Shown here piece by piece: positions 7,569 to 41,203 of a DNA stretch of 41,203 nucleotides. The position numbers and the translations under genes were made by a program. Every line of letters begins with the position of its first letter. Position 1 is the stretch's first letter. Below the pieces are notes generated by a model, which saw only the letters and a list, made by a program, of their open reading frames with translations, made no database searches and had not been told where the DNA came from. Source of the DNA: Acidobacteriota bacterium (GTDB lineage Bacteria; Actinomycetota; Acidimicrobiia; Acidimicrobiales; RAAP-2); NCBI GenBank assembly GCA_019352095.1, contig JABBNY010000002.1, positions 4,893-46,095 of the forward strand. The letters are read 5' to 3'.

Positions 7569-9686
7569 TCAGTCCGTCAATCGAAGCTGATAGTTCGAGC
7601 CCGCCCAGTGCCCACGATTTTCGTCGACGAGTTCCTTCAGATCATCAATCCTCATCGCTCGCGAGAAGAGATGGCCCTGACCCAGATCGCAGCCCATTTG
7701 GCGAAGGCGTTCGAGTTGAGACTCAGTCTCGATTCCTTCCGCGATCACGATCATGTTGAGGTTGCGACCGAGTGAAACAATCGCCTCCAACAGCGTGTGG
7801 TTGTGCACACTCTCGTGCGCAGGGCTCACGAAGGACTGGTCGATCTTGATGATTTTCGGTTGCAACAGTGTCAGGTAGGAGAGCGACGAGTAGCCCGTGC
7901 CGAAGTCGTCGAGTGCGATGGCGATCCCAAGCGCCTTCAGGCGTTCAATGACGTTGAGCGTCTCGCCGATCTCGAGCAGCGTCACACTTTCGGTGATTTC
8001 AAGAATGAGACGACTGGGTTCGAGACCACTCGTCGAGAGTGCGTTGGCGATCGTCGGCACAAGCTCCGAGTCATGAAACTGGCGTAACGAAAGATTCACC
8101 GTCACAAAGGGCCTGTGAGCGTGAGCACTCTTCGTGTCCCATCTCGTCAGGGCCTCGATCGACTCACGAAGCGCGAACAGGCCGATCTCCAGAATGAGTT
8201 CATTCTCCTCGGCCAGGGCGATGAACACGCTTGGCGGCACCCAACCACGCTCCGCGTGTTGCCAGCGCATGAGTGCCTCGAAGCCAACGACTTCAGATGT
8301 TCTCAGATCCATGATTGGTTGGTAGTGCATCTCCAGGTCTCCAGAGTGGAGTGCGTGACGTAGTTGTTGCGTGAGTGCGAACCTGCTCATGGCGTTGAGT
8401 TGCATGTTGGCCGTGAAAAAGACGGAGCGGGACTTGCCTTGGCGCTTTGCTTCGTACAGCGCGATATCCGCATTCTGAATGACTTCGGTCGTGCTCGTGC
8501 CGGGACCGTCCCACAACACGATGCCGATACTCACCCCGAGTTGGAGAAACGTGCCCGCGACCGCGAAGGGCTGGGCGAATGTGCGAAGTACACGCTGCGC
8601 CAGTTGATGCGCCTGATCCGGCGAGTCCAATGCTTCGGCCAAGTAGAGGAACTCGTCGCCGCCGAAGCGACACAGAGTGTCTGAGGTGCGCGTGATCTCC
8701 TCGAGTCGCTGCACTACCGAGCGCAGCAGCTGGTCACCGACGACGTGACCGTAGGTGTCGTTCACGCCCTTGAAATCGTCCAGGTCCAACAGCAGGACTG
8801 CACCCAGGTCGCCGAAACGAGCGGCTCGAGCGAGCGCCTGGGACAGTCGATCGTCGAAGAGTGCCCGGTTCGCGAGTCCCGTCAATGGGTCATGGAGGGC
8901 CTGGTGTGAAAGTTGCTCGGTGAGGGCCCGTTCCTCAGTGATGTCACGCTGGGAGAGGACGTAATAGAGGGTATTACCCACCGCGTCACGAGCTGGCGCC
9001 TTGAACACTTCTACCACCACGACTCGCCCGTCTTTGTGCAGATAGCGCTTGACGTAACGTGCTTGAGAAACTTCGCCAGACGTCAGCCGGTCATGAGTGG
9101 CCTCAGTGATACCCAAGTCCTCGGGGTGGGTGTACGCCGTTGAATCAAGCCCGACGAGTTCGTCTCTGGTGCGACCGATCATCAGGCAGAAGGCGTCATT
9201 GACCGCGATGACCCGGTTCTCGTGATCGTGAAACATCATCGGTGCCATATTGCTCTCGAAGGCCAGTCGAAAGCGCTGTTCGACGTCGTCGTGGGAGCGC
9301 TCCCGCACCCGTTGCGATCGGCCATCACGGATGGTCGCGGTCACCCACTTCTTGTCATCTATCTCAAAAGGTGAGAGTGCGATGTCTACGTCGATCTCGC
9401 TTCCATCGCGACATTGCAGCGTGAAGTTCCCCGAGGAGCCCATCTTTCGTGATTTGGAGTGTGCGACGTACGTTGACAGGTGCGCAACGTGAGGATCGCG
9501 GAATCTTCCCGGGATCAGAACGTCGATGTCCTGGTCGATCATCTCCTCGCGCGAATACCCCGTCAAGTTCGCAAGACGGCGATTCACGTGTCGAATCACA
9601 CCCGTCTCATCGACGATGACGATTCCGTCGGCGATCGCTTCGGACAAGTGGTGACCGAATTGAGGGTGTTCATCAATTCGATTCAC
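7569..9686 (-). CDS. PAS-PAS-GGDEF-EAL cyclic-di-GMP turnover protein
   Basis: Two PAS-like segments; intact RFGGDEFLYL and GFEALMRWQH motifs; C-terminal FGTGYSSLSYL...IKIDQSFV. Confidence 0.95.
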   Translation of the reverse strand: MNRIDEHPQFGHHLSEAIADGIVIVDETGVIRHVNRRLANLTGYSREEMIDQDIDVLIPGRFRDPHVAHLSTYVAHSKSRKMGSSGNFTLQCRDGSEIDVDIALSPFEIDDKKWVTATIRDGRSQRVRERSHDDVEQRFRLAFESNMAPMMFHDHENRVIAVNDAFCLMIGRTRDELVGLDSTAYTHPEDLGITEATHDRLTSGEVSQARYVKRYLHKDGRVVVVEVFKAPARDAVGNTLYYVLSQRDITEERALTEQLSHQALHDPLTGLANRALFDDRLSQALARAARFGDLGAVLLLDLDDFKGVNDTYGHVVGDQLLRSVVQRLEEITRTSDTLCRFGGDEFLYLAEALDSPDQAHQLAQRVLRTFAQPFAVAGTFLQLGVSIGIVLWDGPGTSTTEVIQNADIALYEAKRQGKSRSVFFTANMQLNAMSRFALTQQLRHALHSGDLEMHYQPIMDLRTSEVVGFEALMRWQHAERGWVPPSVFIALAEENELILEIGLFALRESIEALTRWDTKSAHAHRPFVTVNLSLRQFHDSELVPTIANALSTSGLEPSRLILEITESVTLLEIGETLNVIERLKALGIAIALDDFGTGYSSLSYLTLLQPKIIKIDQSFVSPAHESVHNHTLLEAIVSLGRNLNMIVIAEGIETESQLERLRQMGCDLGQGHLFSRAMRIDDLKELVDENRGHWAGSNYQLRLTD

Positions 9687-10042
9687 TCAGATCCTCTCCA
9701 AAAACACGAAATCGCTTCGACGCAACGGCATGTTCAATGTACCTTTACGATGGCACTCAAAACAGTTCATACTGCGAGGTATCTGCGTACATTCTCAGGG
9801 TTGCACGAACTGTCACATCTTGGTACCACACGGTCAGAAGGTTTGTGTCCTTACGGTTCACGAGCGCGAGCACATCGTGACCCACGACCACACGACACAA
9901 ACATGCTGGTGACGTGACACACCGAGTCCGAGTCCGCGTCCTTAATGTTGAACTCGTTCGTTCAGCCCCATACCGGACAACATTCAATGTCGGGCCGGCC
10001 CAACCCGCCGTCCCTCGTGGCGTCAGGAAGCGTATTTGACAC

Positions 10043-29288: not shown

Positions 29289-30641
29289 TTATTGCGTCTC
29301 GCCTCGACCCCAGGTCGTATTGAGGTTCGATTGTGATTCGCGAAGGCCGTTCATTGGACCACCGGCGGAGTAGTAACGCTTGCCCGCGACGAGCAGCTCT
29401 TCGGCGGGGAACTTCGTGATGACTTCACAGCCCGTCGCGGTCACCACAACCTCTTCTTCAATTCGAGCCGCCGACCAACCATCCTTCGCCGGCCAGTACG
29501 TCTCCAGTGCGAAGACCATTCCCTCTTCGAGGGTCTCGGGGCTGTCAAAAGAGACCATCCGGCTGAAGATCGGTCGCTCCCAGATCGACAAACCCAAGCC
29601 GTGACCGTATTGCAGGCCAAAGGCGGCCTCTTCACTTGGGAAGCCGAAATCCTGCGCCTTGGGCCAGACCGCGACCACGTCTGCGGTCGTCACGCCCGGC
29701 TTCACCATGGCAATGGCGGTATCGATGAGCTCGCGGCACTTCGTGTAGGCGTCACGCTGGGCGACCGAAGCGCTGCCCACCGCGAAGGTGCGGTAGTAGC
29801 ACGTTCGATAGCCGTTGAAACTGTGAAGGATGTCAAAGAATGCGGGGTCTCCAGGTCGAATCAGTCGGTCACTGTAGACGTGCGGGTGTGGCGAGCAGCG
29901 CTCACCCGAGATCGCATTCACGCCCTCGACGTGCTCGGACCCGAGGTCGTACAGGGTCTTGTTGACAACCCCCACGCACTCGTTCTCTCGCACGCCCGGT
30001 CGAAGGAAGGTGTAGAGCTCCTCGTACGCGGCGTCGACCATCGACGCGGCCTGGGTCAGGAGGGAGATCTCATCGGTTGTCTTGATGCGACGAGCCTCGA
30101 GGAAGACCTGTTGTCCATCTACCAGCGTGATGCCCTCTTTGGCGAAGGCTGAGAGCACCGGCATCTCGATGACGTCGACGCCGACGGGCTCATTTTGGAG
30201 CCCAAACTGCAGGAGGACCTCCTTCACTTTCTGGGCGACCGAACCCGCGCGGTCGGCGTTCGGCGAGATGGCGCCTCGCAAGGTCGAGATGCCTGCGCGC
30301 GCGCCTTCGTAAGGAACTGACGTGCCGTCGGGCAACACCTGGACGCCACTCAGCCAAGGGTTGTAGAGCTGGTGGTGTCGCGCCGCGGACCCGAAGTCCC
30401 ACACGATTGGCTTGCCACCACGCGGCAAGAGCGCGAAACGGATCAACTTGTCCATTGCCCACGTACCGATGTGAGTGCCGGTCATGTAACGAATGTTGTG
30501 GAAATCGAAGGTCAACAATGCGCCAAGATCCGAACGCTCGAGTTCCGTCTGCAATTTCGCGAGTCTCTCCTCGCGCAGCCGGGGCATGTCGACGCGGCTC
30601 TCCCAGTCGACAGCACTGTTCCCGTTTGTGTGGATACCCAT
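29289..30641 (-). CDS. M24 (pita-bread fold, Xaa-Pro peptidase/DddP-like) family protein
   Basis: Creatinase-like N-terminal domain (LLTFDFHNIRYMTGTHIGTWAMDK), then PAFFDILHSFNGYRTCYYRTF, YGHGLGLSIWERP, EEGMVFALETYWP, ARIEEEVVVT. Confidence 0.85.
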   Translation of the reverse strand: MGIHTNGNSAVDWESRVDMPRLREERLAKLQTELERSDLGALLTFDFHNIRYMTGTHIGTWAMDKLIRFALLPRGGKPIVWDFGSAARHHQLYNPWLSGVQVLPDGTSVPYEGARAGISTLRGAISPNADRAGSVAQKVKEVLLQFGLQNEPVGVDVIEMPVLSAFAKEGITLVDGQQVFLEARRIKTTDEISLLTQAASMVDAAYEELYTFLRPGVRENECVGVVNKTLYDLGSEHVEGVNAISGERCSPHPHVYSDRLIRPGDPAFFDILHSFNGYRTCYYRTFAVGSASVAQRDAYTKCRELIDTAIAMVKPGVTTADVVAVWPKAQDFGFPSEEAAFGLQYGHGLGLSIWERPIFSRMVSFDSPETLEEGMVFALETYWPAKDGWSAARIEEEVVVTATGCEVITKFPAEELLVAGKRYYSAGGPMNGLRESQSNLNTTWGRGETQ

Positions 30642-30679: not shown

Positions 30680-31699
30680 TTAGCGCTGGCGCTTTCGAGC
30701 CCACATGTCCAAACCGACTGCAATCAGCAAGATGACACCGAGCACGATCTGTTGATACAACGGGTCAAAGCCCAAGAGATCGAAACCATTACCAATCAAG
30801 GCAATGAAGAGCACACCGATGACGGTGCGCGGTACCGCACCTTCACCACCCGCGATTGAGGTCCCGCCAACCACGATGCCGGCGAGGACGGTGAAGGCCA
30901 AGGCGCTTCCACCCGATGATGCCTGGGCACTCAAAACCCGTGAGGTATCGATGATGCCACCAGCGGCGGCGGCTCCACCACTCAAGACGAACGTCACGAT
31001 GCGCACCATATTGACACGCACACCAGCGAGGCGGGCTGCTTCTGCGTTTCCGCCGGCGGCAACCACGAAGCGGCCGAACGTCGTCCTCGACAACAAGAGT
31101 GCCAGGGCAACGACGATGACGATCATGATCCACACGGCGCTCGGCATCCCCAAGAAATTGGTCCCCGCGACTTTCGCAAAACCCGGATCGGTGGTGAGGA
31201 CAATAAGGTTTCCGCCGGTGACCTTGGTGGCGATGCCCCCGATCACAAATGACATAGCCAACGTTGTGATCAGTGGATTGATCTTGAAGACGGTGACGAT
31301 TGTTCCATTGACGAGACCAATGAGGAGTCCGATACCCAACCCCGCGACGACCGCAATCCAGGGCGCATGGTGCTCAGCTATCTGGCCCGCAATGACACTG
31401 GTGAGTCCGTAGGTCGCGCCGACCGAGAGGTCGATGCCCCCGGCGACCAAGACCAAGGTACCCGCCGCCGCTATGACGAGCAGCGATGCCTGCTGGTCGA
31501 GGATGTTGATCAGATTCGTGCTCTGCAGGAACGGCTGACTCGATATCGAAAGGATGATGAACAGAATTAGGAAGGGTATGAAGATACCCGCCGTGCGCCA
31601 CGACCCGAGAAGCCGCGAGACGTTGAAGTGAGTGTCGCTGCTACTTTCGCTCGGCGTCTCTACGTCCTTCACGTCGCTAACTGGTGCGTTAGCCATCAC
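30680..31699 (-). CDS. RbsC-type ABC transporter permease
   Basis: NLINILDQQASLLVIAAAGTLVLVAGGIDLSVGATYGLTSVIAG...GGNAEAARLAGVRVNMVRI...GGTSIAGGEGAVPRTVIGVLFIALIGNGFDLLG. Confidence 0.94.
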   Translation of the reverse strand: MMANAPVSDVKDVETPSESSSDTHFNVSRLLGSWRTAGIFIPFLILFIILSISSQPFLQSTNLINILDQQASLLVIAAAGTLVLVAGGIDLSVGATYGLTSVIAGQIAEHHAPWIAVVAGLGIGLLIGLVNGTIVTVFKINPLITTLAMSFVIGGIATKVTGGNLIVLTTDPGFAKVAGTNFLGMPSAVWIMIVIVVALALLLSRTTFGRFVVAAGGNAEAARLAGVRVNMVRIVTFVLSGGAAAAGGIIDTSRVLSAQASSGGSALAFTVLAGIVVGGTSIAGGEGAVPRTVIGVLFIALIGNGFDLLGFDPLYQQIVLGVILLIAVGLDMWARKRQR

Positions 31700-33252
31700 A
31701 CTTCTCCTTCTATGACTGTGGGCTGTGAAAATGCTGCTTCGAGAACTGACTGTTGATTCATCTGCTCACCGCGAAGGTCGGCGACGATGCGCCCCAACCT
31801 CATGACCATGATCCGATGCGAGATTCCCAGGACCTCTTCAAGGTCAGAGGAAATGACAATGATGCCCATACCGGTCTGGGCGAGTTCGACCAGCATGTCG
31901 TAGATAGCGCGCTTGGAACCAACGTCTACGCCTCGCGTTGGTTCATCAGCGATCAAGATGGCGGGCTCGCACATCGCGATTCTCGCGAACAGCAACTTCT
32001 GCTGGTTACCGCCCGAGAGTGACGACGCGGGCACCTTCATGTTCGCGGCCTTCACTTTGACGCGCGTCATGAGTCCCGAGACGACGGCGCGTTCCCTTGA
32101 CTTAGAAATCCAACCGAAGCGGCTGACTTTGTCCAGTCGCGAGAGCGTGATGTTCTCCTTGACCGACCGGCCGACGAGCAGCCCCATCTCTTTTCGTGAC
32201 TCGGGGATGAATGACAGTCCACGTTGGATCGACGTGTGTGGGCTGTGTCCCTTCAATTCTTGACCTTCCAGCAGTACTACGCCCTTGGTCACCTTCGCGT
32301 CTCGAAAGATTGCCCGAGCCAACTCTGAACGTCCCGAACCGACCAGGCCCGCTATGCCGACGATCTCTCCCGCGTGAACCGTGAGCGACGCATCGCTCAC
32401 TTGTGGGGCGTACAGGTGATCAATGGACAACACGGTCGTCGCGTCTGGATCGGCCGGTTGCTTCTCTGGGAACGCTGCGCCGAGTGAGCGCCCCAACATA
32501 CCCTCGATGAGCGAACTCTCAGTGGCGTCCTTGGCGGCAACGGTACTGATCAATCGGCCATCACGCAACGTCGTAATCGTGTCCGAGAGCGCCAAGACCT
32601 CGGACAAGAAGTGTGAGATGAGCACGACACTCTGGCCGTTGCTCGCAAGGGATCGGATCACCTCGTAGAGCGCCTCGGCCTCGTCACCCGACAGCGCCCC
32701 GGTGGGTTCATCCATGATCAAGACCGCCGCGTTTCGCGACAACGCGCGCATGATCTCCACTTTTTGTTGATCAGCGGTGCGAAGGCTCCCGGCCATCGCC
32801 CCTGGCGTCAGTCGGAAACCGACTTGTTCGGCCAGCTCATTGAAACGTCGACGCGATTCGCGTCGACGTACGAAGCCCGCCCTATTCGCGGTGATGCCGA
32901 GAAAGACGTTCTCCTCGACGCTCAGCCCCGGAACGATGGCGAGCTCCTGGGCGATAGTGACGATGCCGTGAGCCAATCCTTCTCGAGGTGAGTGCAGCGC
33001 TACAGGCGCACCGTTCAGACGGACTTCGCCGTCGTCTGGTGTCAAGACTCCCGAGACGATCTTTCCCAGCGTCGACTTACCCGCTCCGTTCTCCCCCACC
33101 AACGCATGAACGGTGCCCGCCTTAAGCGTGACCGAGACATTGTCGAGGGCAAGTGCCCCACCGAACCGCTTCGATACACCGGCCACCTCGACATCGAGGC
33201 CAGTGTGTCGAACGGTTCGGTGGGTGTCGTTATCCGTTATACCTGCCGACAT
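31696..33252 (-). CDS. RbsA-type ABC transporter ATP-binding protein (two ABC domains)
   Basis: HALVGENGAGKSTLGKIVSG; VLIMDEPTGALSGDE; SLSGGNQQKLLFARIAMCEPAILIADEPTRGVDVGSK. Confidence 0.95.
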   Translation of the reverse strand: MSAGITDNDTHRTVRHTGLDVEVAGVSKRFGGALALDNVSVTLKAGTVHALVGENGAGKSTLGKIVSGVLTPDDGEVRLNGAPVALHSPREGLAHGIVTIAQELAIVPGLSVEENVFLGITANRAGFVRRRESRRRFNELAEQVGFRLTPGAMAGSLRTADQQKVEIMRALSRNAAVLIMDEPTGALSGDEAEALYEVIRSLASNGQSVVLISHFLSEVLALSDTITTLRDGRLISTVAAKDATESSLIEGMLGRSLGAAFPEKQPADPDATTVLSIDHLYAPQVSDASLTVHAGEIVGIAGLVGSGRSELARAIFRDAKVTKGVVLLEGQELKGHSPHTSIQRGLSFIPESRKEMGLLVGRSVKENITLSRLDKVSRFGWISKSRERAVVSGLMTRVKVKAANMKVPASSLSGGNQQKLLFARIAMCEPAILIADEPTRGVDVGSKRAIYDMLVELAQTGMGIIVISSDLEEVLGISHRIMVMRLGRIVADLRGEQMNQQSVLEAAFSQPTVIEGEV

Positions 33253-33316
33253 TTCAGTCCACGATTCCATTCACACGATTGACTTGGGGAGACTTACACC
33301 CAGCTCAGACTGAGGA

Positions 33317-34336
33317 TCAGCCTGGCCATTCTCCAGTCCACTTGCTGGCGTTGGCCTTGGTGACAAGACCGTGGCTCGGAAGCGACGCCACCGGGTCAAT
33401 GCGTCCCGAGTTGCGGCCGGTCTTGATTGCCTTGATAAGCGCCATCATGCCAAGCTGACCTTCGGAGGACGGCGCCTGAGCTACGTCGGAGTACCAGGCA
33501 CCCGACGCGACACCCGCGATGCCAGCCGAGCTTGCGCCGAAGCCCTCGAGCATCACCGACGTGTTGTTAGCGGCCTTCAGTGCCACCTGTGCACCTTCGA
33601 TGCTCTGGTCCGAACCAACGATGAGGTTGAGGTTTGGGTTGGCTTGGAGGATGTTGGCCACGGTGGTGTCTGCGGCCGCAATCGAGAAGTAGCCCGATCC
33701 GTCAGCAACCTGCTTCACGCTCGGTGTCGTCGCGATTTCCTTTGCGAAGGAGTTGTAGATTGCGGTGTCCAAAGTCGAACCCTTGTAGTTGTAGATGTAG
33801 GCGATGTTGCAAGGGTTCAGGTTCTTCGAGGCGCACGCCTGGATGACCTGCTGGCCCATGGTCTTCCCGATCTGGGTGGGAAGGAACACCACGTTCGCTG
33901 AAAGACCCTTCACCTGAGGGGCGTCAGTCGCGTAGCTGGTGCCCAAGATCTGGTCAATGTTCACGACCTTGATGCGACGCTTGATGGCTTGCTTCACGAG
34001 CGGGATCAGGTTGGTCGAGACGATGGGCTGGGTAATGATCCCTCGGTACTGCCCTGACGTGATCGCGTTTTGAAGTTGGGCGTACTGCGTCGCCGGGTTG
34101 TTGTTCGCGTCAAAGACGGTGATCTGCACGCCGTCTGCCGCAGCAACGGCCTTCGCCGCGGCCAACATCGGCGCGTCATAACTGTTCGAGACTGCGAAGG
34201 ACAGGTACGCAACCTTGATGGGCTTGGCCTTGGCCTTGGCTGCTTGGACCGACGTACCAGCACCAATCCACGTTGTCGCCATCAACGTAATTCCGAGTGC
34301 CGCACTCGAGGCACGGCCTAGTTTGCTTCTAAACAT
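33317..34336 (-). CDS. RbsB-type periplasmic substrate-binding protein
   Basis: Signal peptide, then KVAYLSFAVSNSYDAPMLAAAKAVAAADGVQITVFDANNNPATQYAQLQNAITSGQYRGIITQPI. Confidence 0.92.
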   Translation of the reverse strand: MFRSKLGRASSAALGITLMATTWIGAGTSVQAAKAKAKPIKVAYLSFAVSNSYDAPMLAAAKAVAAADGVQITVFDANNNPATQYAQLQNAITSGQYRGIITQPIVSTNLIPLVKQAIKRRIKVVNIDQILGTSYATDAPQVKGLSANVVFLPTQIGKTMGQQVIQACASKNLNPCNIAYIYNYKGSTLDTAIYNSFAKEIATTPSVKQVADGSGYFSIAAADTTVANILQANPNLNLIVGSDQSIEGAQVALKAANNTSVMLEGFGASSAGIAGVASGAWYSDVAQAPSSEGQLGMMALIKAIKTGRNSGRIDPVASLPSHGLVTKANASKWTGEWPG

Positions 34337-34486: not shown

Positions 34487-34515
34487 ACAATAACGATGTT
34501 TAATTAACATGTCAA
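34487..34515 (-). promoter_or_regulatory. Sigma70-type promoter for the ABC operon
   Basis: Minus strand TTGACA (34515-34510), 17-bp spacer, TATTGT (34492-34487). Confidence 0.6.
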
Positions 34516-34528
34516 GTAGCAGTGAACA
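34510..34528. promoter_or_regulatory. Operator-like site A (19 bp)
   Basis: Minus strand TGTTCACTGCTACTTGACA; 15/19 identical to site B in one orientation; overlaps the -35. Confidence 0.55.
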
Positions 34529-34613
34529 CATTGAACACCCTGAGAACACCACGCTCGAATCGCCGCCTCGTCGTCCACACGCGATGGTGTGACGACTCGC
34601 GCAACACGTAACG

Positions 34614-34660
34614 CGGTCCCAACGGTGACCCTCGAAATGCGAGCGTCACCGTTGGGACCG
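34614..34660 (-). terminator. Strong hairpin terminator candidate after the amidohydrolase
   Basis: CGGTCCCAACGGTGAC ... GTCACCGTTGGGACCG (16 bp), one C/C mismatch, then CTCG-aaatg-CGAG. Confidence 0.7.
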
Positions 34661-34676
34661 ACGTAGAGGACCAGAA

Positions 34677-36116
34677 CTACTTCGCGTACGTGTAGGGATT
34701 GTCCTGCTTGTAGCGCGTTGGTATCTCTGGGTTCATGCCCGCGTTCCACGCTTCCTCGCCAAGAGTGTCAGCGAGGAACGTGACGGTCTCCTCGGTCAAC
34801 GTCTTGGCGCGATCGAGGTCAATACCGATCAACTTGTGCTCGTGCTTCACGATGTTGCCGTTGATCACCACGGTGTGCACATCGGCCCGCTGGGCTTGCA
34901 TCGTCACGTGACCGTACGGATTGAGGATCGGGAACATCACCGGAGACGCGTCGTTCTTGATGAGCACGATGTCGGCCTTCTTGCCTACTTCGAGGCTGCC
35001 GATCTTGCTGTCCAGACCGAGAGCCCGGCTGCCGCCGCGAGTTGCCCAGTCAACGACTTCTTCGGAACGAAGATCCAAGTGCGTCACCGTCTCATCTTTC
35101 TGATGGGCTTCGAAATGCTGACGAGACCGGTCGGCACCGAGCGTCGTTCTCATGGCGCTAAACAGGTCCGCACTCCACCACACTGAGGTGTCGTGTGAGA
35201 GCGAGACCGGGATGTCGAATTGACGTAGTTTCCACGACGAGGGGTACCCCTGGCCGGCGCTCTGCTCGCTCTCGGTTGACACCGACGCCGAGCAACCGCA
35301 CGCCGCGATGCGACAGTAAGAATCGTCTGAAAGGGTGGACGCGTGAACGAAAATGGTGTCTGTTCCCATGAAGCCGTTCTCGTGCATCAAGCGCACGCTC
35401 TCGTCGCCGGTGGCGCCACGCACGCCAGCGTGGGTTGTGACACCCACCCCCAGATCACGCGCCACTTCGAACGCGGCGCGCTCAGGGAACTCTGGATCGC
35501 CCGTGACGTCAAAGGCGATCTGGAAGCCGAGCGTGTCGCCCTTGCCGTCGATGCGACGCTTGTAGAAGTCCTTGAACTCCTTCTCGGTCGTCCATTCCCA
35601 CGGCCCGCGCTGAATGTTGCCATAGGCCAAGATGAACCGACCCGGCACCGCTTCGAGTGCATCGACTGCAGCATCAGCGTGCTCTGTGGTCTGCAGCCCA
35701 TGTGACCAGTCGACCGATGTCGTGACGCCTGCATCGATAGCTTCGATGCCCGACAACAGGTTCCCCGCGTAGATGTCCTGCGGACGAAAGTTCCGACCGT
35801 GCTCCAGGTAGTACCACACGAAGTACTGCGAGAGTGTCCAGTCCGCACCGTATCCCCGCATAGCGGTTTGCCACATGTGACGGTGCGTGTCGATCATGCC
35901 AGGCATGACGATGCCGCCCTTCGCATCTATCACCAACGCGTCGTCGGGTGCCTTTATATCGGTACCGATTTCCTTGATCACTCCATCGGCCACGAGGACA
36001 TCGCAGTTCTTCAACACGCGATGCGTGTTGTCCATAGTGAGCACTAACCCATTTCTAAACACAATGGCTCGTCCGTGCTCGAGTGATTCCCCCGTCGAAC
36101 TAACAGCTTTATTCAT
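34677..36116 (-). CDS. TRZ/ATZ-type amidohydrolase (SsnA/AtzA-like superfamily)
   Basis: IVMPGMIDTHRHMWQTAMRGYGADWTLSQYFVW (HxH), GVGVTTHAG, VSLSHDTSVWW, SLEVGKKADIVLI; start taken at MNKAVSSTGE. Confidence 0.9.
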   Translation of the reverse strand: MNKAVSSTGESLEHGRAIVFRNGLVLTMDNTHRVLKNCDVLVADGVIKEIGTDIKAPDDALVIDAKGGIVMPGMIDTHRHMWQTAMRGYGADWTLSQYFVWYYLEHGRNFRPQDIYAGNLLSGIEAIDAGVTTSVDWSHGLQTTEHADAAVDALEAVPGRFILAYGNIQRGPWEWTTEKEFKDFYKRRIDGKGDTLGFQIAFDVTGDPEFPERAAFEVARDLGVGVTTHAGVRGATGDESVRLMHENGFMGTDTIFVHASTLSDDSYCRIAACGCSASVSTESEQSAGQGYPSSWKLRQFDIPVSLSHDTSVWWSADLFSAMRTTLGADRSRQHFEAHQKDETVTHLDLRSEEVVDWATRGGSRALGLDSKIGSLEVGKKADIVLIKNDASPVMFPILNPYGHVTMQAQRADVHTVVINGNIVKHEHKLIGIDLDRAKTLTEETVTFLADTLGEEAWNAGMNPEIPTRYKQDNPYTYAK

Positions 36117-36150
36117 GACACCCCCACGCATCATCTCTGATTGTCTCTGG

Positions 36151-36178
36151 AGCGTAGCACCGTGTTCACTATTGTCAA
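36151..36178 (-). promoter_or_regulatory. Sigma70-type promoter for the amidohydrolase
   Basis: Minus strand TTGACA (36178-36173), 16-bp spacer, TACGCT (36156-36151). Confidence 0.5.
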
Positions 36179-36191
36179 GAGCTACTTGACA
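36173..36191. promoter_or_regulatory. Operator-like site B: perfect inverted repeat
   Basis: TGTCAAG-agcta-CTTGACA (7-bp arms), overlapping the -35 of the amidohydrolase promoter. Confidence 0.6.
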
Positions 36192-36379
36192 CACACGCGC
36201 CACTCGGGACCGCTGCTTCGACGCTTCGCTGTCAGGTCATCCACCAACTTGGAGAGCGTTCCAACATCGAAGAGGGAGGATGCCACAAAATCATAGGCAT
36301 ACATTGAAGATGCGTCGTTGACGTGGTCCTCGGTCAGCTCGACGGCGCTCGACTCCTCGTCCGCGACAAAAGTAAGTTA

Positions 36380-36398
36380 TGTTTGACTGTACTGAACA
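36380..36398. promoter_or_regulatory. Operator-like site C upstream of the SDR gene
   Basis: TGTTTGACTGTACTGAACA; 11/19 identity to site A on the same (+) strand, keeps TGT-N13-ACA and TGAACA. Confidence 0.4.
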
Positions 36399-36420
36399 GA
36401 GACAGAGGGGGCTTGTGTCA

Positions 36421-37128
36421 ATGCAGCAATCAAACATGGAGGGGCGCACCGCTGTGGTGCTTGGCGGCACGTCTGGAATCGGTAAAGAGATCGTCAAGTC
36501 GCTGGCCGCCAAGGGCGCAACGGTCTACCTTTCTGGTCGCAGCGCTGAAAGCGCCGAGAACGCCGCGACCGAGATCGGCATGGGAACCATTGGACTGGCC
36601 GTCGATCTCAGTGAGCCAGAACACATCGCCGCCTCACTCTCGTCAATCGCGTCCGTTGACTACTTGGTGATTCCCGCAATCGAGCGCGACTCGAACACCA
36701 TCGCCGATTACAACATCGCCGGCGCAGTTCGATTGGTCACCCTCAAATTGGTGGGTTATGCGGAGTCGATTCACGCACTTCGCGACCGCTTCAGCACCAA
36801 CGCGTCGGTCGTGCTCTTTGGCGGCCTCGCGATGGAACGCCCCTACCCCGGCTCGACGACTGTCTCGACTGTTAACGGAGGTGTCGTGGGAATGATCCAC
36901 ACGCTTGCCTGCGAACTAGCCCCGGTGCGCATCAACGCCATCCACCCCGGCATCATCGGCGACAGTCCGTACTGGGAGAATAAAGACAACAGTCCGATCA
37001 TCTCGCGCACGCCCCTGGGGCGTCTCGTCACGATGCAAGAGATTGTGCACTCAGTCGAGTTTCTCCTTGAGAACACAGGGGTGAACGGCGTCAACTTGAA
37101 CATGGATGGTGGTTGGCTGTTCAAGTAA
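36421..37128 (+). CDS. Short-chain dehydrogenase/reductase (SDR)
   Basis: AVVLGGTSGIGKEIVKSLAAKGATVYLSGRS...YPGSTTVSTVNGGVVGMIHTLACELAPVRINAIHPGIIGD...GVNGVNLNMDGGWL; start taken at MQQSNMEGR. Confidence 0.9.
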   Translation: MQQSNMEGRTAVVLGGTSGIGKEIVKSLAAKGATVYLSGRSAESAENAATEIGMGTIGLAVDLSEPEHIAASLSSIASVDYLVIPAIERDSNTIADYNIAGAVRLVTLKLVGYAESIHALRDRFSTNASVVLFGGLAMERPYPGSTTVSTVNGGVVGMIHTLACELAPVRINAIHPGIIGDSPYWENKDNSPIISRTPLGRLVTMQEIVHSVEFLLENTGVNGVNLNMDGGWLFK

Positions 37129-37170: not shown

Positions 37171-38082
37171 ATGCACCACGCAACAAAGATCGACGACACC
37201 GCGGCGTACACGCCATCGTCCTACGAGGGTCATTCGTCGGGCTTTCGACGACAAATCCTGGTGAACCGTGCTATCGGTTCGCCACACATGACACTGTCCG
37301 TAGGTCATCTCGCCACAGACGGCTACGTCGCAACTCAGTTGCACTCTTTTGAGGTCAGCATCTACGTCTTCTCGGGCAGCCTCGCGGTCACCACACTGGG
37401 CGCGACAACGTTGCTCGAGGAGAACAACGTCATCGTCCTTCCACTCGCCACTGCCTACGCGCTTCGAGCAATCAACGGACCAGTCAAGTGGCTACAGATG
37501 GCTTCTCCCGCGGAACTCGATGATGGACGACGACACGACACATTCTTCACCGGTGAGACACTCGCCGAAACCGTACCCGAAGCGCCGGACATGCGTGACC
37601 CACGTAATCGAAATGCTGCGCGATTCGACGCCGAATCAATGGATCTCAAGCGGCTCGCCGGCGGCTCTGACGTCAACGCACCCACGGTATCCCCGAGCAT
37701 GGCCACTGCCCTCTTGGCCTACAGCGGTATTGGTGTGAAGATGCTCGTCGACCAGCAGGTCGGTGCGCAACTGCACACCATGTTCATCGTTGACTACCAG
37801 CCCACCGCCATCGCCCACCCTCACGACCATCCCTTCGAAGAGGCCTACGTCTTCGTCGAGGGCGAGGTCCACGCTCTGGTCGATGGCGAATTAATGGTGT
37901 TCCATCCAGGCGACGTCCTCTGGGCAGGCGTCGGGGCGGACCATGGATTCGAAAATCGCGGTGATGGTCTCGTGCGCTGGATCGAAGTTCAAACTCCCCA
38001 GCCGCCCACTCGCCACTCGTACAGGTTCAGTCGCGAGTGGGAACACTTGTCGACAAAGTTGGAGCACGGTCACGAGCACTAG
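37171..38082 (+). CDS. Bicupin protein (ureidoglycine aminohydrolase-like fold)
   Basis: C-terminal cupin HPHDHPFEEAYVFVEGEVHALVDGELMVFHPGDVLWAGVGADHGFEN has the metal-binding pattern; N-terminal cupin is degenerate. Confidence 0.85.
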   Translation: MHHATKIDDTAAYTPSSYEGHSSGFRRQILVNRAIGSPHMTLSVGHLATDGYVATQLHSFEVSIYVFSGSLAVTTLGATTLLEENNVIVLPLATAYALRAINGPVKWLQMASPAELDDGRRHDTFFTGETLAETVPEAPDMRDPRNRNAARFDAESMDLKRLAGGSDVNAPTVSPSMATALLAYSGIGVKMLVDQQVGAQLHTMFIVDYQPTAIAHPHDHPFEEAYVFVEGEVHALVDGELMVFHPGDVLWAGVGADHGFENRGDGLVRWIEVQTPQPPTRHSYRFSREWEHLSTKLEHGHEH

Positions 38083-38184
38083 ACACCGAATCAGATGAAG
38101 TGCCGAGTCCGCTGCCATATGTGCGTGAAGTACCTAGAATTTGAGAAGTGAATTGTTACTGGACGGTCAAGGGAGAGTTGTTAG

Positions 38185-39000
38185 ATGGTGGTTTCTAAAG
38201 GTACGGCGTCGAATCCGGAGACCTTTGACCCCGCACACCCTGATTCGCCCACAAGCGAGCAGCCTTCGGTCGCTCCAGAAGTCGCGACAACGAGCACCAG
38301 TGAACGGACGAACTCAGGTCTGATCGGTACTCGACTGCGGGCGCGACGAGAAGCATCGGGAATCTCGCTTCGCCAATTTGCTCGCGATCTTGATGTCTCG
38401 CCGTCATTCATCTCGCAATTGGAAACCGGAAAAGCGCAACCCTCGGTGGCCACGTTGTTCGCAATCTGTGAAGCACTCGGCATTGCGACCGATGAGCTCT
38501 TCGACAACGAGACAACGCCCCCACGCTTCGCCGGCAACGCAGTCACGCGTGGTGGCACCGATGCCGTCAACAACTCGTGGCGATCCGTTACAAGTTTCGG
38601 CACACTCTCCAACCCCCAGCGCACTCCTCGTAGTTCTGATGAGGCGGGATCATCCTCACCCCTCGTGCACCCCAATGAGCGAAAAGTCTTGGTACTTGAC
38701 TCTGGGGTTACCTGGGAGTCGCTCACCGCGACTCGTAACGAGAAGGCCGATTTCATGTTCGTTCGCTACGAAGTTGGTGGGAGCTCCACCATGGAGGATC
38801 GCCTAATCCGCCACGTGGGCAGCGAGTACGGCTTCATTCTGAGCGGAACCCTCGAGATCACTTTGGGTTTCGAGAACTACCGGCTTACGGCGGGTGACTC
38901 AATATCATTTGATTCCAGTCGCCCCCATCGACTGGCCAATGTCGGCGACGTCCCCGTTGAAGCCATCTGGATGAATTTGGAATTCCTCCCGAACCACTGA
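38185..39000 (+). CDS. XRE family transcriptional regulator with C-terminal cupin sensor domain
   Basis: LRARREASGISLRQFARDLDVSPSFISQLETGKAQPSVATLFAICEALGIATDELF; cupin ...VGSEYGFILSGTLEITLGFENYRLTAGDSISFDSSRPHRLAN. Confidence 0.93.
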   Translation: MVVSKGTASNPETFDPAHPDSPTSEQPSVAPEVATTSTSERTNSGLIGTRLRARREASGISLRQFARDLDVSPSFISQLETGKAQPSVATLFAICEALGIATDELFDNETTPPRFAGNAVTRGGTDAVNNSWRSVTSFGTLSNPQRTPRSSDEAGSSSPLVHPNERKVLVLDSGVTWESLTATRNEKADFMFVRYEVGGSSTMEDRLIRHVGSEYGFILSGTLEITLGFENYRLTAGDSISFDSSRPHRLANVGDVPVEAIWMNLEFLPNH

Positions 39001-39031: not shown

Positions 39032-39745
39032 TCAGACCGTGGCGCCGAGCGCCAGACCAACGCCGTACGTGATCGCAAGCGCCAGACAACCGCCAATCCC
39101 CACTCTGAGCGCCCCTCGCAACGCTGAGGCCCCACCAAGTTGTGCACCGAATCCACCGAGCAGGCACATCGACACAATCGTCACGAACGCCAGCACCGGG
39201 ATGCGCATCGAGCTCGGTGTCAAACCGACCGCCAACAGCGGCAGGACAGACCCCACGGCGAAACTAACCGCCGACACGCTCGCCGCCTGGACGGGGCGCG
39301 CCCGGGTTCGCTCATCGTGACCGAGTTCATCGCGAAGATGGGCCGCCAATGCATCGTGCGCGTGCAGCGCGGTCGCCACCTGTGTCGCCAACGCGCGAGA
39401 GAGTCCGCGCGCTTCGTAGATTGCGACGAGCTCGGCGTGCTCCTGCTCGGGATCTTGCTCGAGTTCGCCGGCTTCCTTCTTGACGTCGGCTTTCTCCGCG
39501 TCGGACTGCGCGCTCACCGACACGTACTCACCAATAGCCATCGAGAGCGCCCCGGCGGTCAGCGCCGCTGCTCCCGCGGTCATCAGCGCCGTCTTCACGG
39601 CACCGGCGGCAACGAGTCCAACGAGAAGAGCCGCCGTGGAGACAAGTCCGTCATCGGCGCCGAGCACTGCCGCGCGCAACCAGCCCGCTCGACTCGAGCG
39701 ATGGACTTCACTATGGCTCACTGGTCGTCTCGTCTCGAATCGCAA
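39032..39745 (-). CDS. VIT1/CCC1 family (Fe/Mn transporter-like) membrane protein
   Basis: GWLRAAVLGADDGLVSTAALLVGLVAAGA...GALSMAIGEYVSVSAQSDAEKADVKKEAGELEQDPEQE. Confidence 0.93.
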   Translation of the reverse strand: MRFETRRPVSHSEVHRSSRAGWLRAAVLGADDGLVSTAALLVGLVAAGAVKTALMTAGAAALTAGALSMAIGEYVSVSAQSDAEKADVKKEAGELEQDPEQEHAELVAIYEARGLSRALATQVATALHAHDALAAHLRDELGHDERTRARPVQAASVSAVSFAVGSVLPLLAVGLTPSSMRIPVLAFVTIVSMCLLGGFGAQLGGASALRGALRVGIGGCLALAITYGVGLALGATV

Positions 39746-39909
39746 AGCACTCTCATCGAAGCGCGCGATATACGCTCAATGAACTCGATCACTTGACGGC
39801 CACTCACATTTGGCAGACTACCCTTCGCCATCTCGCAACGCGATTGACAAAGGTCACCTTCCGGGAGATTCAACGGGCGATCCAAGCGACGATGTCCGTC
39901 GCGCGCGAC

Positions 39910-40521
39910 TCACTTCGATTCGACGGTCCTCGCGGCCTTGATGAAAAACGCGCGAACCTGGGCGCCGGTGGGATTGAGATGGGTGGAACCATCGATGACC
40001 GCCTGTCCGATCGAGGCGGACCAGTACGTGCTTATCAGCACCTGGGAGTCCAGGTCCCTGATGATCCAGCCATGGTCCTTCGCCCGTTCAACCGCATTGA
40101 CCCAGCGTTGGAATTGGGTCTCCAATTTCTGGGTGAAGCGTTCTCGTGTTCCGGGATCGGCCCAGACGTCGAGCAGGAGCTTGACGACATCCCACTTACT
40201 ATCGCCTTGGCCCGCCGCCCACGCGAGTTCCAGATTCTCGCCAATGGCTGACCAGAACGCCGCCTCGTCATTCACCTCGGTCGCTTCTTCTGCACGAGTG
40301 AGACACTGGTGCAGATTTTCGGTTCGCCTGGCGTAACTGTAGAGCTGCGCCTCGGCGATCAGCTGCGTGCGCGACTCGAAGTAGTAGTAGATCGTCGGAA
40401 CCCCGACGTTCGATCGTTGCGCGACTTCAGAGATGCGAACATTGTGGCTCTCGTTCTCCGAGATCATCGTGAGAGTCATGTCGATGATGTGATCTCTTGT
40501 CCCAGAACCGCTGCGACCCAC
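39910..40521 (-). CDS. TetR/AcrR family transcriptional regulator
   Basis: GTRDHIIDMTLTMISENESHNVRISEVAQRSNVGVPTIYYYFESRTQLIAEAQLYSYARR. Listed ORF start (40857) is over-extended; GTG at 40521 plausible. Confidence 0.85.
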   Translation of the reverse strand: MGRSGSGTRDHIIDMTLTMISENESHNVRISEVAQRSNVGVPTIYYYFESRTQLIAEAQLYSYARRTENLHQCLTRAEEATEVNDEAAFWSAIGENLELAWAAGQGDSKWDVVKLLLDVWADPGTRERFTQKLETQFQRWVNAVERAKDHGWIIRDLDSQVLISTYWSASIGQAVIDGSTHLNPTGAQVRAFFIKAARTVESK

Positions 40522-40654
40522 TCGAATTCCCTCCCACCGAATTCCCAACCAGGGACTGGAGTCATGTATATCATCTGGTCTTTGACGATGTTGACCAATT
40601 GAGCCGGGCGGCACCGTGGCGTCGTTGAAGTCGTGCGTCCGCGATGCCTCGCGA

Positions 40655-41203
40655 CTATTCGTGATGATCGAGCAGGGCTCTGACGTGCACGCCGATGGAA
40701 TCGACGAGCGGCCACGGAGGATTATCCTCATCGACGAGAAGGCCGAACTCAGAACTGCAGAACCCAATGATGTCACCACCACGCGACCGGCAATCACCGA
40801 CGATCTCCGCGAGGCGACCGCGCGACTCATCGCTCGCGACGCCATGGGCCAATTCATCGTCGATCATCGCTTGGAGCTCATCCACCTGCGCGCTGTCGGG
40901 CTTCACGACGTAGACACCCGCCCGTTCGAGATGAGACGAGTAGAACGAATTCTCGATGAGATACCTAGTGCCGAGTAGGGTCATCGCCGACGAACCAAGC
41001 GACTTGACCGCTTTGACCATCGCGTCTCGCACGTCGACCACGGGGATCGACACGGCATTCGCAACGTCGTCATAATTGCGATGCATGGTGTTGGCCCCGA
41101 TGCCGAGCACGGTCGCGCCGCCCGCTTCGAGACGACGCGCCGAGTCGGCGAGCACTCGTCCAAGCGCGACCCAGTCGCCAGCGCGACGGAACCGAACGAT
41201 CTG
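40655..41203 (-). CDS. Aspartate/glutamate racemase family protein (5' end beyond window)
   Basis: RRLEAGGATVLGIGANTMHRNYDDVANAVSIPVVDVRDA...MTLLGTRYLIENSFYSSHLERAGVYVVKPD...FCSSEFGLLVDEDN. The frame stays open to the window edge. Confidence 0.87.
   Translation of the reverse strand, partial: QIVRFRRAGDWVALGRVLADSARRLEAGGATVLGIGANTMHRNYDDVANAVSIPVVDVRDAMVKAVKSLGSSAMTLLGTRYLIENSFYSSHLERAGVYVVKPDSAQVDELQAMIDDELAHGVASDESRGRLAEIVGDCRSRGGDIIGFCSSEFGLLVDEDNPPWPLVDSIGVHVRALLDHHE

Follow-up and report, generated by a model that had tools for sequence, protein, structure and literature searches.

A predicted operator for an XRE-cupin regulator in a conserved gene cluster of the Acidimicrobiales

The gene cluster and its three candidate operators

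A 19-bp element recurs at three promoters of a gene cluster encoding transport and metabolic proteins, and the question that this raises is whether its copies are operators and, if so, which protein recognises them. The window, by which we mean the whole stretch of 41,203 nucleotides that was analysed, carries the cluster in the order M24, permease, ATPase, binding protein and amidohydrolase followed, in the divergent direction, by SDR, bicupin and XRE-cupin. On the minus strand, domain and family searches identified genes for an ABC permease (BPD_transp_2; 30680..31699), an ABC ATPase of the sugar-import type with two ABC domains (31696..33270), an ABC substrate-binding protein (Peripla_BP_4; 33317..34336), which is the first gene behind operator A, and a PRK08204-like amidohydrolase behind operator B (34677..36116), while an M24-fold enzyme (29289..30641) was assigned from Pfam and alignment. 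The plus strand encodes an SDR oxidoreductase, the first gene behind operator C (36415..37128), a bicupin-like protein in which one Cupin_2 domain was detected (37171..38082) and, as the last gene of this operon, the XRE-cupin regulator of 271 amino acids (38185..39000). VIT1-family, TetR-family (39910-40857) and Asp/Glu racemase genes adjoin the cluster (39032-41203), in an order that is common only to the relatives L046 and L047.

Putative operator A (34510..34528, minus strand) is a 19-bp inverted repeat, TGTTCACTGCTACTTGACA as read on the minus strand, which would hold the -35 box of the ABC/M24 operon promoter. This predicted promoter (34487..34515, minus strand) has a -35 TTGACA (34515-34510), a 17-bp spacer and a -10 TATTGT (34492-34487), and it is the strongest sigma70-like match of the region. 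Putative operator B (36173..36191, minus strand) is a perfect inverted repeat, TGTCAAG-N5-CTTGACA with the spacer AGCTA, and appears to hold the -35 box of the predicted amidohydrolase promoter (36151..36178, minus strand), where TTGACA (36178-36173) is followed by a 16-bp spacer and an extended -10, TGC-TACGCT (36156-36151). Putative operator C (36380..36398, plus strand), TGTTTGACTGTACTGAACA, overlaps a predicted -10, TATGTT (36378-36383), of the SDR-bicupin-XRE operon. An earlier, sequence-only reading of this DNA had placed three elements here, with perfect arms in B, 15 of the 19 positions of A (read on the minus strand) identical to B, and right halves of A and B that form TTGACA -35 boxes with a sensible spacer and -10, and the sequences were found exactly as described.

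The promoter at C had no counterpart in that reading. Its conserved TATGTT was seen by alignment and is likely to be the -10 of the SDR gene, for which orthologs support a start at GTG 36415, the one adopted here, or at ATG 36421. The upstream ATG 36379 is probably wrong as the SDR start; if it were used, site C would fall inside the gene. Additional half-sites are conserved within the spacers of the other two promoters. That of the ABC promoter at A contains a second inverted repeat, TGTTAATTAAACA in the window and cGTTCAGTGAACA in relatives, and that of the amidohydrolase promoter at B contains an extra TGAACA. We read the extra half-sites (cGTTCAgTGAACA at A and TGAACA at B), superfluous in a plain promoter, as possible further contacts. 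The half-sites of the second repeat at A (region 34487-34528) lie closer together than those of the 19-mer.

Conservation and background frequency of the element

Ninety-nine genomes of the genus were searched for the XRE-cupin protein and the amidohydrolase, and the surroundings of the matches, up to 20 kb long, were compared. The amidohydrolase is present in 36 of the 99 genomes and the cluster is kept in about the same number (about 36/99). The named relatives are Acidimicrobiales or actinobacterial metagenome-assembled genomes, whose sequences may be misassembled, and several carry isolate names referring to bog, fen or palsa. A single gene order, that given above for the window, prevails among the relatives, except that in L064-L067, L069 and L073 the XRE-cupin gene lies downstream of M24 instead, as the last gene of the other operon. 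L070 and L071 each carry two XRE-cupin genes in tandem, separated by a stretch with an operator-like site (TGTTAAnATTCATTGCACA).

The 19-bp element is kept at all three promoters in the relatives, and three blocks stand out from flanks that are scrambled between clades. At A the block reads TGTTCrnTnynACTTGACA, a 17-bp spacer and TAnTGT in the direction of the operon; at B it reads TGTGAAGTnnnTCTTGACA, a 16-bp spacer and TGC-TACRCT in the direction of the gene; and at C it reads TATGTTyrnnnnnnACTGAACA (also as TATGTTYR..ACTGAACR) and lies about 15-25 bp before the SDR start. Nearly all relatives that have the XRE-cupin keep site A ahead of the binding-protein gene, and most relatives keep site B at 55-60 bp from the start of the amidohydrolase gene, on its upstream side. 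Some clades instead show TGTACAG...CTGTACA at B, a form that scores low on the matrix from the window's clade; such a symmetric change of both halves is as expected for a dimer site. The claim that one element is shared by the promoters of the ABC operon, the amidohydrolase and the SDR-bicupin unit is thereby upheld, and the conservation before orthologous genes that had been proposed as its test is present in clusters with an XRE-cupin and readable promoters.

An NmrA-like gene adjoins the cluster in seven relatives and a fourth site precedes it in five of these, 47-90 bp upstream (L046-L048, L050 and L052, with two sites in L046), while the gene has no upstream site in L053 and L143. In the window's genome the NmrA-like gene is seemingly absent, judging from one search with no positive control in that genome.

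Background frequencies were assessed at several scales. Within the window, TGT-N13-ACA is at background, with eight matches against 8.7 expected, and palindromes with up to three mismatches number three against 1.7 expected; genome-wide, the mismatch-tolerant palindrome is not enriched (74 against 83 in the control, and 23 against 28). The refined pattern TGTYMAN7TKRACA has exactly two matches in the 2.87-Mb genome, A and B, which are only suggestive because the chance expectation is of the same order. A check against the genome-wide background, as had been proposed earlier, thus gave a divided answer: TGT-N13-ACA by itself does not rise above background, but in the window's own genome the refined motif occurs nowhere except in the cluster. 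The evidence from the window's genome alone is weak and it is the comparison with relatives that decides.

Across 95 genomes of the genus, the strict pattern gave 59 matches, with about 19 inside the cluster and about 40 outside by hand count, against about 38 in the control. The matches outside equal the control and give no sign of further targets of the regulon in these 95 genomes. A matrix trained without the window's clade scored A at 22.1, B at 19.2 and C at 15.7, and these are the best three sites of the 41-kb window. A symmetrised matrix from the window's own clade gave its leading matches at the corresponding places in other clades; a score of at least 15 arises by chance at one position with a probability of about 2e-6 at 58% GC. 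Another operator-like match in the window (9731-9749; 15.5 with the other-clade matrix) lies 45 bp before a PAS/GGDEF/EAL-like gene (7569-9686, minus strand) and may be due to chance.

The XRE-cupin protein as candidate regulator

The regulator combines an HTH_3 domain (residues 51-105) and a Cupin_2 domain (192-263) in one chain, both above the Pfam cutoff. In its structure model (mean pLDDT 65.7) both domains are well scored and the linker and N-terminus are unreliable, and the best fold match in the PDB is 1Y9Q, an HTH_3 transcriptional regulator. It thus shows features of XRE-cupin repressors, with the HTH_3 domain N-terminal, the cupin C-terminal and the gene adjoining metabolic and transport genes in a conserved cluster; a palindromic operator over the target promoter can be added on the grounds of sequence and conservation only. 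The best NCBIfam match is PuuR of Escherichia coli (NF007408), which shares the HTH plus cupin architecture, but identity with PuuR was rejected (58.0 bits against a cutoff of 211) and, unlike for PuuR, no putrescine-pathway genes were recognised in the cluster. Immediately ahead of the XRE-cupin gene the window has no strong site, but just a weak match at 38147 (9.7-10.3).

Two relatives keep the cluster without the XRE-cupin gene, L141 (genome G054) and L142 (G081), and both genomes are 96% complete. Searches for the XRE-cupin gave nothing better in G054 than a weak match (E 1.8e-4), no match in G081 and none in the L141 and L142 stretches themselves. All three operators are missing from both, with best scores at the operator places of 6.2 and 0.1; where an XRE-cupin is present, the best site of a cluster never scores below 14. 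Five fragments lacking the gene (L143, L145, L148, L150 and L151) were left out of this count of losses because their contigs end before its expected place. The amidohydrolase tree joins L142 to L074 as its sister (100/98) and L141 to L065/L066 (84/89). Since L074 and L065/L066 all possess both the regulator and the sites, L141 and L142, which are placed apart, look like two separate losses. The amidohydrolase promoter of L141 retains an intact core (TTGACA, 16 bp, TACGCT) beside a decayed outer operator half, showing that the constraints on promoter and operator are separable.

The element was also followed beyond the genus. Outside the Acidimicrobiales, the contig scan gave a single close XRE-cupin ortholog, that of Pseudonocardia alaniniphila (44% overall and 53% within the matched part), and two sites (20.9 and 18.2) lie there between the XRE-cupin gene and a divergent NAD-binding reductase-like gene. 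A sample of 397 Actinomycetota genomes added clusters of distant Actinomycetota with the same enzymes (L202-L207 and L211), whose best sites score from 12.0 to 25.7 and are intergenic, near genes of the module. Three XRE-cupins in other settings (L208-L210, with an M24 gene at a distance of 5 kb in L210) have a best site of at most 10.7. The two joint absences, together with the motif following orthologs into other Actinomycetota, lend support to the earlier choice of the XRE-cupin protein at 38185-39000 as the likeliest regulator. In L072 and L077-L079 a different XRE-cupin, about 40% identical to that of the window, occupies the same place and has a similar recognition helix, with operators partly conserved, so that the pairing is not strictly one of one protein to one motif.

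We consider it very likely that the XRE-cupin encoded in the cluster has its operators in A, B and C, where it would act as a local repressor released by a ligand. It is improbable that the sites belong to some other DNA-binding protein, either the nearby TetR-family regulator or a global one, with the XRE-cupin gene as a passenger. The TetR-family gene does lie close to the cluster, but together with the racemase gene it adjoins the cluster only in L046 and L047, yet the sites occur in all clades, and the nearby TetR was rejected as regulator because its gene is not conserved with the cluster. Moreover, the refined motif has no genome-wide excess and the sites are both missing where the XRE-cupin is missing and present where it occurs in other Actinomycetota.

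Still less credible, and in our view close to negligible, is the idea that the conserved bases are ordinary promoter elements and no operators at all. The sites do contain promoter-like bases, TTGACA in A and B and TATGTT in C, but the promoter boxes do not include the conserved outer half-sites, and the right half of C lies downstream of its -10; the loss of the outer half beside an intact amidohydrolase promoter core in L141, and the symmetric change of both halves of B in some clades, also speak against it. There is, finally, a slight chance that the XRE-cupin acts from these sites as an activator of transcription, or as activator and repressor alike. Against this, -35, -10 and start all fall under the sites, the core promoters seem usable as they are, and the regulator-less L141 keeps its amidohydrolase promoter without the operator, as expected for lost repression; the Pseudomonas XRE-cupins that have been studied are inhibitors (PMC7901475).

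The proposed switch and its metabolic context

The switch that we infer for the XRE-cupin as repressor comprises direct binding, repression, ligand release and autoregulation. A dimer would bind the 19-bp inverted repeat, with a consensus of about TGTTCAGT-N3-ACTGAACA and TGTCAAG as a common half-site variant, and would cover the -35 at A and B and the -10/start region at C, thereby keeping RNA polymerase off all three promoters. Binding of a pathway-linked small molecule to the cupin domain would release the repressor, and the transporter, amidohydrolase, SDR, bicupin and M24 genes would then be turned on together. The regulator gene, at the operon end behind C or, in one clade, behind A, would be subject to negative autoregulation. 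Judging from analogy and from the placement of the sites, repression of all three promoters and release by a pathway metabolite are most likely. The sequence-only reading had one repressor blocking the -35 of the transporter and catabolic genes; this agrees with A and B, where the -35 lies inside the site, but not with C, which sits at the -10/start region, and the repression itself belongs to the inferred switch.

Such a switch is of a well-known type. Pseudomonas XRE-cupins, including PsdR, PauR, ErfA and PA0535 among others, are local inhibitors with palindromic sites for which promoter occlusion has been proposed (Trouillon et al. 2021, PMC7901475). The present system resembles them in combining HTH_3 and cupin domains, in the gene lying beside metabolic targets, in having few targets and palindromic sites and in the proposed occlusion, but it differs in being actinobacterial, in having three or more operators in one cluster and in being predicted here from sequence. 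DbuR of Pseudomonas putida is an XRE-cupin repressor that protects a 20-bp palindrome over a -10 (PMC12724383), and it shares the palindrome over a promoter element beside a transport/catabolic operon; its palindrome, unlike ours, is AATTCTCATATATTAGAATT and its targets are D-amino-acid catabolism genes (PMC12724383). The motif TGTTCAGT-N3-ACTGAACA was not met in the literature compared on XRE-cupins, a search for the motif together with cupin gave nothing relevant, and no paper was found on an actinobacterial reconstruction.

As regards the pathway, the amidohydrolase resembles triazine/guanine-type hydrolases and the importer is a sugar-type ABC system. In the M24 enzyme, the position of the second metal-ligand Asp of related peptidases (GYcsDitRT) is taken by a Cys (GYRTCYYRT), and this Cys is kept in all 14 aligned homologs, across distant Actinomycetota; the enzyme possibly represents a distinct subfamily. 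Assignment of the M24 gene as DddP was rejected (NCBIfam, 118.6 bits against a cutoff of 600). L202-L207 and L211 hold M24, bicupin, SDR and XRE-cupin genes, and most of them also an amidohydrolase gene, in a shuffled order, and their enzyme set is apparently an undescribed catabolic module. A broader proposition, on which we are evenly divided, is that the operator-regulator pair marks such a module throughout the Actinomycetota, consisting of the Cys-site M24 enzyme, amidohydrolase, bicupin, SDR and sugar-type ABC importer, and that the motif can serve to draw its regulon and point to the inducing substrate.

With these results, an actinobacterial XRE-cupin gains a predicted operator that is backed by two natural regulator-less cases. 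They define which genes would be under joint control in a conserved uptake-and-breakdown cluster of uncultured Acidimicrobiales, from peatland and elsewhere, and the range of substrates to be considered becomes narrower. With the motif as a guide, the same pathway could also be sought in Pseudonocardia and other culturable Actinomycetota.
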